Assembly: GCA_009692985.1 (NCBI GenBank)
Contig: SHYF01000004.1
Location: forward strand, 1-21,702
Direction of reading: 5' to 3'
DNA from: Dehalococcoidia bacterium
GTDB taxonomy: Bacteria; Chloroflexota; Dehalococcoidia; Lucifugimonadales; SHYF01
Length of the DNA stretch: 21,702 nucleotides
This document shows positions 16,506-18,583 of this stretch, piece after piece. The first letter of the stretch is position 1. Each line of letters begins with the position of its first letter. The notes under the pieces were generated by a model. The model did no database searches, was not told where the DNA came from, and saw nothing but the letters and a program-made list of their open reading frames with translations. Position numbers and translations under genes: made by a program.

Positions 16506-16601
16506 ATGGAAGCGCTTCTAAGTGGGATTGCCTTCGCGGGACTATTCACCCTCTGGGTGATATTGCCTATCAAGATCATGAAGGAGCGGCAGGAGTCATA
16601 G
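16506..16601 (+). CDS. 31-residue single-pass membrane microprotein, first gene of the amt unit
   Basis: ATG at 16506 with GAGGTGG about 8 nt upstream opens a 31-codon frame ending in TAG. The protein starts MEALLSGIAFAGLF, has one hydrophobic helix (about residues 4-22) ending in WVILPIKI, and a charged tail KERQES. It resembles the 30-residue protein at 18491-18583: both have a Gly/Phe-rich helix that ends in WVILP followed by a basic residue two positions on. The shared sequence, the same position behind a GlnR-type operator, and ribosome-binding sites in both cases argue for real genes. It probably sits in the plasma membrane near AmtB. Function unknown; a regulator of ammonium transport or PII binding is an inference. 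Confidence 0.75.
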   Translation: MEALLSGIAFAGLFTLWVILPIKIMKERQES

Positions 16602-16617
16602 CAATCAACTGAGCTTG

Positions 16618-16657
16618 AAGACATACCCCTCCAGCAATTGCGGAAGGAGTATGTCTT
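16618..16657 (+). promoter_or_regulatory. Long imperfect hairpin between microprotein and amt genes
   Basis: AAGACATAC (16618-16626) pairs perfectly with GTATGTCTT (16649-16657), and the stem continues with CCT/AGG and a GCAATTGC apex. There is no T-run, so it is more likely an attenuator, mRNA-stability element or processing site than a full terminator. It could raise the microprotein yield relative to AmtB. Confidence 0.5.
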
Positions 16658-16707
16658 TGCCTGTAATACGATTCGAGCGCGAACGGAAAATACCGAGGAG
16701 GTGACGG

Positions 16708-17982
16708 GTGCCTGAGATCAACACCGGGGATAATGCCTGGATACTGACTTCGTCGGCGATGGTACTGCTGATGACCCCTGGCCTGGCCTTTTTCTACGCC
16801 GGGCTTGCGGGACGCACCAACGTGGTAGCCACAATCATGCACAGCTTCATAATAATGGCGCTCATCAGCGTGGTCTGGGTCTTGTGGGAATACAGCCTGG
16901 CCTTCGGGCCGGACGCAGGCCACATTATTGGCAACTTCAGCTGGTTCGGCCTGAAAGATGTGGGAGTGGACCCCAACGCCGACTACGCTGGCACCATACC
17001 TCATCTGACATTCATGTCCTTCCAGATGATGTTCGCAATCATCACCCCTGCCCTGGTCACAGGGGCGCTGGTGGGACGGCTCAAGTTCAAGACGTTCCTG
17101 GTGTTCGTTGTCCTGTGGGCAACCCTGGTGTACGCGCCCATAGCTCACTGGGTATGGGGAATCGGCGGCTGGCTGGGCAACCTGAACGTCATAGGTCTGG
17201 GATTCGAGGGCGAAGTGCCCGCAGGCTACGCTAACAAGGCACTGGACTACGCTGGCGGCACGGTGGTGCACATTAGCTCCGGCGTCAGCGCCCTGGCCGC
17301 GGCCCTGGTGTTAGGCAAGCGGCGGAGCTTCGGGCAAGAGCCCGATGTGCCGCACAACATCCCATTTGTGGTGCTGGGTGTGGGCCTTCTTTGGTTCGGT
17401 TGGTTTGGATTCAATGCGGGCAGCGCCCTGGCTGCCAACGGTGCGGCTGCCAACGCCTTCGTCACCACCAATACCGCCGCTGCTGCCGCCGCACTTGCAT
17501 GGATGACAATGAGCTGGTGGCGCGGAGGTGCGCCCAGCCTGGTTGGGGCGGCCTCTGGCGCAGTGGCCGGGCTGGTGGCCATCACCCCCGCCGCTGGTTG
17601 GGTGGGTCCCATGCCAGCCATTCTCATCGGCATAGGGGCTGGCGTGTTCTGCTATCTGGCCACCTGCCTTCGCAGGAAGATAAAAGTTGACGATACGCTG
17701 GACGTTTGGGGAGTGCATGGCATAGGCGGAACCTGGGGCGCCCTGGCCACGGGCCTGTTCGCGTCAGCCGCCGTGGGTGGTGTCAATGGCCTGTTCTACG
17801 GTAACCCAGGCCAGCTGGTAAACCAGATTGTGGCCGTGTTAGCTAGCTGGGTCTGGGCCTTCGGAATAACATTCATTCTGCTGAAGGTGTTGGACAAGAC
17901 AATGGGGCTGCGTGTTTCAGAGCAGCAAGAGGTTGTTGGGATAGATGGTAGCCAACACGGCGAAACGGCCTACACCCCGTAG
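16708..17982 (+). CDS. amtB: Ammonium transporter
   Basis: The 424-residue protein has about eleven membrane helices and the marks of the Amt/Mep family: LMTPGLAFFYAGLAGRTNVV in the first helix, FQMMFAIITPALVTGA, and the two pore histidines in DYAGGTVVHISSGVSALAAA and WGVHGIGGTWGALATGL. It brings ammonium across the plasma membrane when nitrogen is scarce. The start is a GTG with GAGGAGG upstream. The C-terminal cytoplasmic tail is about 25 residues, with MGLRVSEQQEVVGID, typical of the PII-interacting region. glnB follows after a 32-nt gap, the usual amtB-PII pair. It lies behind a GlnR-type operator and the microprotein gene. Confidence 0.95.
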   Translation: MPEINTGDNAWILTSSAMVLLMTPGLAFFYAGLAGRTNVVATIMHSFIIMALISVVWVLWEYSLAFGPDAGHIIGNFSWFGLKDVGVDPNADYAGTIPHLTFMSFQMMFAIITPALVTGALVGRLKFKTFLVFVVLWATLVYAPIAHWVWGIGGWLGNLNVIGLGFEGEVPAGYANKALDYAGGTVVHISSGVSALAAALVLGKRRSFGQEPDVPHNIPFVVLGVGLLWFGWFGFNAGSALAANGAAANAFVTTNTAAAAAALAWMTMSWWRGGAPSLVGAASGAVAGLVAITPAAGWVGPMPAILIGIGAGVFCYLATCLRRKIKVDDTLDVWGVHGIGGTWGALATGLFASAAVGGVNGLFYGNPGQLVNQIVAVLASWVWAFGITFILLKVLDKTMGLRVSEQQEVVGIDGSQHGETAYTP

Positions 17983-18014
17983 CATCGTTTGGGAGTAATC
18001 ACGAGGAGGAACAG

Positions 18015-18373
18015 GTGAACAAGGTTGAGGCAATAATCCGACCTGAGAAACTAAGCACAGTGATATCGGCTCTGGCTGAAGAGGGCTTCCCTGGGCTCAA
18101 CATAAGCAACGTCACGGGGCGGGGCGCCCAGCGCGGCCTCACTTATGTGGGGCGCGGCGAAGCGACCTACGTGGTGGACATGTTGCCCAAGGTCAAGCTA
18201 GAGGTGGTGGTGAGTAATGCCGACACTCAGAAGGTTGTGGACATCATTAGGTTGTGGACATCATTATCTCCCGTTCCCGCACAGGAGAGATAGGCGACGG
18301 CAAGATATTCATAATCCCGGTAGCCAACGCCATACGGGTCCGCACCGGAGAGTCGGGGGATAGCGCGCTCTGA
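18015..18373 (+). pseudogene. glnB: PII nitrogen regulatory protein, frameshifted by a 17-bp tandem duplication
   Basis: A GTG start at 18015 with GAGGAGGAA upstream opens a PII protein. Residues 1-78 are clearly PII: KVEAIIRPEKL, a T-loop region with Tyr52 in RGEATYVVD, and LPKVKLEVVV. At 18233-18266 the 17-mer GGTTGTGGACATCATTA occurs twice in tandem. As it stands the frame shifts and ends at 18291-18293, giving 92 residues with an unrelated tail ([14 protein letters not shown]). Removing one copy gives 113 residues with the full C-terminus: [20 protein letters not shown] then RVRTGESG, stop at 18371-18373. That lost part holds the C-loop and the Lys and Arg residues that bind ATP, so the encoded form should not be a functional PII. 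PII senses 2-oxoglutarate and ATP/ADP and gates AmtB. Confidence 0.9.
18233..18266 (+). repeat. Perfect 17-bp tandem duplication inside glnB
   Basis: 18233-18249 and 18250-18266 are identical. As 17 is not a multiple of three, the second copy breaks the glnB frame; losing one copy restores it exactly. Confidence 0.97.
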
Positions 18374-18387
18374 TCCCAGGACGAAAC

Positions 18388-18425
18388 GTAACAAATAGTT
18401 AACATTTTCGTAATATCCAGGTAAC
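18388..18425 (+). promoter_or_regulatory. GlnR-type operator, four half-sites with 11-bp period (second microprotein unit)
   Basis: GTAAC (18388), TTAAC (18399), GTAAT (18410) and GTAAC (18421) are spaced exactly 11 bp, the same layout as at 16409-16446. A GAAAC (18383) precedes them. A possible -10, TAGGCT, lies at 18436-18441. The operator begins 15 nt after the restored glnB stop. Confidence 0.75.
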
Positions 18426-18490
18426 GGATTCTCTCTAGGCTGAGTTCGTTGGCCGGGAAGACGTCCACTACATAAGTCAGGGAGGAAGCG

Positions 18491-18583
18491 ATGGATATTA
18501 CAACTGCGGCTGGGTTCATTGGGTTCGTCATTGGGCTAGCAGCGTGGGTCATACTTCCCACCCGCGTCCCGGCTGGAGAGTAG
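18491..18583 (+). CDS. 30-residue single-pass membrane microprotein, stand-alone gene before glnA
   Basis: ATG at 18491 follows an excellent ribosome-binding site (GGGAGGAAGCG) and opens 30 codons ending in TAG. The protein starts MDITTAAGFIGFVIGLAAWV, with one membrane helix (about residues 6-21) ending in WVILPTRVPAGE. Its WVILP and Gly-rich helix match the microprotein at 16506-16601. It is preceded by a GlnR-type operator and closed by an intrinsic terminator at 18690-18725, after which glnA has a separate promoter. It thus looks like an independent nitrogen-controlled gene rather than a leader peptide. Function unknown; small proteins that bind glutamine synthetase or AmtB are known in Methanosarcina mazei (sP26, sP36), which is a precedent only. 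Confidence 0.78.
   Translation: MDITTAAGFIGFVIGLAAWVILPTRVPAGE

Follow-up and report, generated by a model that had tools for sequence, protein, structure and literature searches.

The window considered here is the whole of a 21,702-nucleotide stretch of contig SHYF01000004.1 (assembly GCA_009692985.1, a Dehalococcoidia bacterium of the Chloroflexota), in which two short genes are set among genes of ammonium uptake and assimilation: small gene 1 on the amtB side and small gene 2 between glnK and glnA (Table 1). Both frames are intact, start with ATG, follow a Shine-Dalgarno-like sequence and encode products (MEALLSGIAFAGLFTLWVILPIKIMKERQES and MDITTAAGFIGFVIGLAAWVILPTRVPAGE, respectively) with one predicted membrane helix, WVILP and a basic end, as a preliminary description of this DNA had read them. 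Each is the first gene behind an operator of four GTAAC-like units with an 11-bp period, and the 16-mer GTAACAAATAGTTAAC stands unchanged before both (at 16409 and 18388), so that the matching nitrogen operators of that description were borne out as well. Its view that the same small protein is encoded twice held in part: the two are members of one family, but they share only a weak likeness (25% identity), and genomes elsewhere carry one to four copies (E <= 1e-4). In the glnK frame a 15-bp stretch is present twice, 17 bp apart (18235-18266), which shifts the frame and leaves the remainder of PII in another one; this may be an assembly error or a broken gene, the two being indistinguishable here. 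No window match reached the gathering threshold of Rfam.

Table 1. Features of the two small genes and their surroundings in the window.
Feature	Position	Strand	Basis or remark
OmpR-type response-regulator gene, upstream neighbour of small gene 1	15576..16265	+	Trans_reg_C 7.2e-29; GlnR_1st 18.6 bits (cut-off 27)
Operator 1, GTAACAaatagTTAACAgatgaGAAATAcgggcGTAAC, four units at 11-bp spacing	16409..16446	+	layout as in the published tandem GlnR box
Putative -10 hexamer CATTCT, 15 nt past the start of the last operator-1 unit	16457..16462	+	family-wide register
Shine-Dalgarno-like GAGGTGG of small gene 1	16493..16499	+	sequence
Small gene 1 (31 amino acids), amtB side; single predicted membrane helix with WVILP and a basic C-tail	16506..16601	+	
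Hairpin 3' of small gene 1, AAGACATAC...GTATGTCTT; possible partial terminator or processing site	16618..16657	+	z -3.28
amtB, ammonium transporter, GTG start	16708..17982	+	PF00909 5.5e-127; TIGR00836 above cut-off
glnK (PII) frame, broken by a 17-bp tandem duplication	18015..18373	+	PII identity through GlnK match in L282
Operator 2, GTAACAaatagTTAACAttttcGTAATAtccagGTAAC	18388..18425	+	four units, 11-bp spacing
Putative -10 hexamer TAGGCT, register as for operator 1	18436..18441	+	family register and sequence
Shine-Dalgarno-like GGGAGG of small gene 2	18480..18485	+	sequence
Small gene 2 (30 amino acids), glnK-glnA side; single predicted membrane helix with WVILP and a basic C-tail	18491..18583	+	
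Terminator-like hairpin AGAGGGC...GCCCTCTCTTCTT, gap between small gene 2 and glnA	18690..18725	+	z -1.61, stability unexceptional
glnA, type I glutamine synthetase	18844..20310	+	TIGR00653 above cut-off; Pfam

The two genes belong to a family of proteins of 27-60 amino acids with a single predicted membrane span (F-x2-L-F-x2-W-V-V-L-P, then a basic tail) that is real, widespread and unnamed, and has so far been seen in Chloroflexota. The profile search of Chloroflexota genomes that the preliminary description had proposed found members in 58 of the 197 genomes sampled from the order (E <= 1e-4, counted by hand), in 26 of 245 from the class and in 36 of 400 from the phylum (both at E <= 0.001), and a scan of the fetched loci (L numbers below; G numbers denote genomes) added further ones. 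In the order search a clear gap separated the members (E <= 1e-4) from the next matches (E >= 0.006). Locus L004, whose AmtB is 74% identical to that of the window, has a member at both positions (MEMLLAGLAFVGLFTAWVIVPSKFLKKRD before amtB, MEAVALVSLVSFLVVMAAWIVLPIKAPVKD between glnK and a glnA); together with the gap in E-values and the mostly synonymous substitutions given below, it upholds the claim that the recurrence goes beyond chance. The counts that follow refer to 136 distinct places (matches that scored 25 bits or more and had both a start and a stop codon, duplicates removed), many of which come from few genera, so that they are not counts of independent events. The outside-phylum control, which covered 39 of 80 loci and matched 3 of 39 genomes (L004, L006 and L036, all titled Chloroflexi), is a small one, since its 36 unmatched genomes include those of L003, L005 and L077, which are titled as Chloroflexota, and those of L019, L021, L047 and L078, whose titles give no phylum, and Actinobacteria were left out.

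The curated cut-offs of Pfam and NCBIfam were reached by none of the five members scored against them, and the E-values of 44 members pointed to no convincing family (best 0.0027 in Pfam, for LapA_dom with two members, and 0.017 in NCBIfam), in keeping with the earlier statement that no named family was known for them. Among protein-database entries, 250 proteins matched at E <= 10; few of the 120 listed were given a name, in every case 'hypothetical protein'. The family profile had no match among PDB sequences at E <= 10, and no description of the family was found in the titles and abstract openings of the open-licence PMC literature among the matches listed.

The ratio of non-synonymous to synonymous substitution rates (dN/dS), also proposed in the preliminary description, points to purifying selection: the pooled value is 0.18 (382.5 synonymous changes over 926 sites vs 257.5 non-synonymous changes over 2506 sites), as measured in 52 disjoint pairs that range from 2 differences to 35% of nucleotides differing and include some within-genome paralogues, with high synonymous change (pS 0.41) and with a downward bias because the members were found by protein profile. 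By codon position, the same pairs differ at 156, 85 and 399 sites. The small frames are very probably translated as protein. Tryptophan occupies its position in 130 of the 136 places (phenylalanine in the other 6), a phenylalanine stands seven residues before it in 135, lysine and arginine are absent before it in 135, and one of these basic residues lies within 12 residues past the proline in 135. By the positive-inside rule, this charge pattern predicts an N-out, C-in orientation. Reduction of the places to 80 non-redundant cores (in which the proline is fixed by the search motif) left a small residue at position -11 in 79, phenylalanine at -7 in 79 and tryptophan in 75; among the angles tried, the periodicity of conservation was highest at 100 degrees per residue (0.75, with 0.67 at 90 degrees; no significance test attaches to these values). 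One helix face carries the conserved Phe, Leu and Trp together with the conserved small residues, and this face of small residues, Phe, Leu, Phe and Trp seems to resemble a packing interface.

Strong GlnR sites are reported to have four units at 11-bp spacing, and amtB and glnA of S. venezuelae to lie behind a tandem GlnR box of the form GTnAC-n6-GTnAC-n6-GTnAC-n6-GTnAC, with GAAAC in the b positions (PMC3087709). A GTAAC-type four-unit operator precedes 96 of 134 family places above the 99th percentile of dinucleotide shuffles (69 of 89 nitrogen-linked places and 27 of 45 others), as scored with a matrix set by hand after inspection of the window and L004, both of which are among the tested sequences; two places were dropped because their upstream DNA was short. 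A hexamer 15 nt past the start of the last operator unit, which had played no part in finding the operators, has A at its second position in 91% and T at its sixth in 89% of 76 operators (the non-redundant remainder of 93 scoring at least 27), as expected of a -10 element. Since the four units stand just upstream of this element, induction of the small gene is expected to coincide with that of amtB and glnA. No further site within two mismatches of GTAACAAATAGTTAAC occurs in the 1.3-Mb, 71% complete genome of the window.

A strict operator pattern was also searched in 11 genomes (36 matches listed). All 20 sites at 0-1 mismatch lie before a small gene (14), amtB (5) or glnA (1); the best nitrogen-type operators hence precede the 30-residue protein more often than amtB or glnA (14 vs 6 of 20), a lead favoured by a pattern modelled on the small-gene operator. 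The reversed pattern had one match in the same genomes. The 16 sites at two mismatches comprise 3 before a small gene, amtB or glnA, 4 opposite-strand readings of known sites, 2 that overlap before a molybdopterin oxidoreductase gene, and 7 that are either unexamined or have no nitrogen gene recognised beside them. The GlnR-type array before the oxidoreductase (L284/L291, G116:C2:304648-304707), an enzyme identified as such by eye from a motif, may extend the regulon to nitrate use, as its product is perhaps an assimilatory nitrate reductase.

The OmpR-type gene beside small gene 1 is a candidate GlnR-like regulator. Its match to the GlnR N-domain stays under the cut-off (Table 1), and no NCBIfam cut-off for a GlnR was reached among the 25 matches listed of 39. 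Matches to it also occur near a small gene in L203, L204, L215 and L227, a co-location that is weak evidence because OmpR-type regulators form a large family. The case for a GlnR-like regulator draws on the agreement of the operators with the published consensus and on this adjacent gene with its sub-threshold match. By sequence evidence the family appears to be under GlnR-type control; homologues, purifying selection, the operator and the register of the promoter all support the family of GlnR-controlled membrane microproteins put forward in the preliminary description, with its regulator a candidate.

The link to amtB and glnA claimed in the preliminary description proved usual, although not universal: 91 of the 136 places lie within 1 kb of amtB, glnK, glnA or glnII. 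Loci centred on the best matches to the window's proteins (and hence not a random draw) held a member in 18 of 31 cases for AmtB and in 9 of 30 for GlnA. The commonest neighbour is amtB, with 21 places between two amtB genes, and 16 of 24 copies of the type B subtype stand directly behind glnK. An AmtB match was found in 57 of the 58 family-bearing genomes vs 109 of 139 others (Fisher p 1.7e-4, uncorrected for phylogeny and completeness, which tempers the association). Nor is the association bound to one synthetase type, as small genes precede a type II (eukaryote-like) glutamine synthetase in L150, L154, L232, L236, L242, L244, L249, L250 and L253. Four tandem copies, each with its own operator, lie near an amtB in L235 (G153) and L173 (G180), which suggests selection for dosage. 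The copies of genus g65 (L237-L239, L241, L243, L245, L246, L248, L251, L252 and L254), with long hydrophilic C-tails and strong operators, lie away from amtB and glnA, often in tandem.

We consider it probable that these proteins constitute an undescribed single-span microprotein family that, expressed from a GlnR-type promoter, acts in times of nitrogen shortage as a small subunit or a modulator in the uptake and assimilation of ammonium. Nitrogen limitation would induce the small protein, which would act in trans at the membrane, its helix packing against a membrane partner and its basic tail presumably turned towards the cytoplasm. The AmtB trimer would be the likeliest partner, given that amtB is the commonest neighbour and that an AmtB match accompanies the family in nearly all bearing genomes; next would come PII (GlnK) and, in the case of the copy between glnK and glnA, also glutamine synthetase, as type B copies stand behind glnK. 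GlnD exceeded its model cut-off in none of 18 genomes; as 17 of the 18 matched parts of the 850-position model (chiefly around positions 320-570) and 2 of 14 control genomes exceeded the cut-off, a divergent GlnD may still be present. The lack of a GlnD over the cut-off offers a possible reason for such a modulator. More tentatively, one could imagine that Chloroflexota AmtB has a previously unseen single-span subunit, with a GlnR-type promoter of its own and often in several copies, whose basic tail binds PII or glutamine synthetase and replaces a GlnD-dependent step of PII control; we regard this as possible but doubtful.

Among the alternatives, the one that survives best, albeit an unlikely one, is a nitrogen-induced membrane microprotein that acts elsewhere (its target being, for example, a different transporter, lipids or the envelope in starvation) and whose neighbourhood reflects a shared regulon. 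The operators kept by 27 of the 45 copies away from nitrogen genes would suit it, as would a genome without an AmtB match and the copies of the f74 clade in unrelated surroundings, while the 91 places close to nitrogen genes and the AmtB matches in 57 of 58 bearing genomes run counter to it. Several observations weigh against the reading that we favour. No nitrogen gene lies within 1 kb of 45 of the 136 places, and 20 of the 89 nitrogen-linked ones have no operator; 12 of these 20 follow glnK or amtB at a distance of up to 100 bp, so that an upstream promoter can serve them, and L227 falls just under the threshold. In G001 (97% complete, of the same genus, and the only other sampled genome of the window's taxonomic family) the operator stands directly before amtB with no small frame (locus L003), and the whole genome has no family match at E <= 1, which indicates that the protein is dispensable; the second copy is not judgeable there because amtB and glnA lie at contig ends. 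The absence of the frame in relatives, named in the preliminary description as what would speak against it, was found in G001 only and is not general. The window genome's own second amtB (L085, G000:C127:2330-3559) has three GTAAC units upstream (by eye) and no small gene, and G031 (97% complete) carries a small gene before a glutamine synthetase and has no AmtB match. Finally, in the f74 clade, from another class, the protein occurs without operator and without nitrogen neighbours, and it accounts for 15 of the 18 operator-less places away from nitrogen genes. The f74 places (L177, L178, L183, L185-L200, L258 and L259) adjoin, in the loci inspected by eye, a small DUF503-like gene; a second role, or the ancestral one, is suggested for these copies.

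Quite improbable is a leader peptide, that is, a short open reading frame whose translation attenuates the following amtB or glnA and which has no function in trans. Both window copies do have a promoter on one side and amtB or glnA on the other, and hairpins, some of them terminator-like, occur 3' of the frame: a hairpin of <= -15 kcal/mol before a T-run follows 41 of the 136 places vs 0.6% of shuffles, so that most copies show none by that test. In L004 a terminator-like hairpin with a T-run separates the first small gene from amtB; in the window small gene 1 is followed by a strong hairpin with a poor T-run. Family copies are found upstream, downstream, in tandem (arrays of up to four) or unlinked with an operator of their own, some standing directly behind amtB or glnK (L036, L006 and L218), and this variety disfavours a leader peptide. 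Moreover, amtB and glnA can own an operator (L289 and L270), the small gene and glnA have separate operators in G021, and conservation follows a membrane helix. The leader peptide is rejected for the family, although both window copies have its cis-upstream layout.

A type I toxin-like membrane peptide residing in nitrogen loci appears very improbable: type I toxins are comparable in size and likewise have a single span, a basic tail and tandem copies, but a Pfam search with 44 members brought up no toxin family at E <= 0.1, and a nutrient-type operator lies at a fixed distance from the -10 box. That the frames are spurious or an assembly artefact, to which a 71% complete genome with an interrupted glnK might lend itself, is a negligible prospect, refuted for the family by its spread over many genomes, the E-value gap, dN/dS, recurrent ribosome-binding sites and the promoter register.

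If the protein does modulate ammonium uptake, a largely uncultured phylum would have its own layer of nitrogen-assimilation control, in genomes where no GlnD exceeded the cut-off, and concrete questions arise as to which partner it has and which step it acts on. Subunits of the KdpF, CydX and AcrZ type are about 30 amino acids long, have one helix and are encoded beside, or act on, a larger membrane complex. The Chloroflexota proteins share their size and single helix and differ in that copies have their own promoter, partly their own terminator, and in some cases lie far from the putative partner; searches of Pfam and NCBIfam with 44 members gave no match to any of these families at E <= 0.1. 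The glutamine-synthetase inactivating factors of cyanobacteria are likewise small, nitrogen-controlled and directed at assimilation, but they are soluble and produced under nitrogen-replete conditions, whereas the present family is predicted to span the membrane and would be expected when nitrogen is short.

The published properties of sP36 from Methanosarcina mazei offer a further comparison: it is a protein of 61 amino acids without a transmembrane helix that reaches the membrane via AmtB1, is induced by nitrogen limitation, is proposed to act on AmtB with GlnK, and is reported from archaea and a few bacterial families, in organisms without GlnD (PMC10714827). Common to both are small size, a link to nitrogen limitation (here drawn from the operators) and genomes without GlnD over the cut-off; the Chloroflexota proteins differ in being mostly about 30 amino acids long, with one predicted span and often several copies. 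With the actinomycete GlnR regulon the family shares the four-unit operator layout before amtB and glnA, and it departs from it in that the regulator here is a candidate and that the text available for that regulon names no small membrane target (PMC3087709). The shared layout suggests that GlnR-type control may extend past Actinobacteria.

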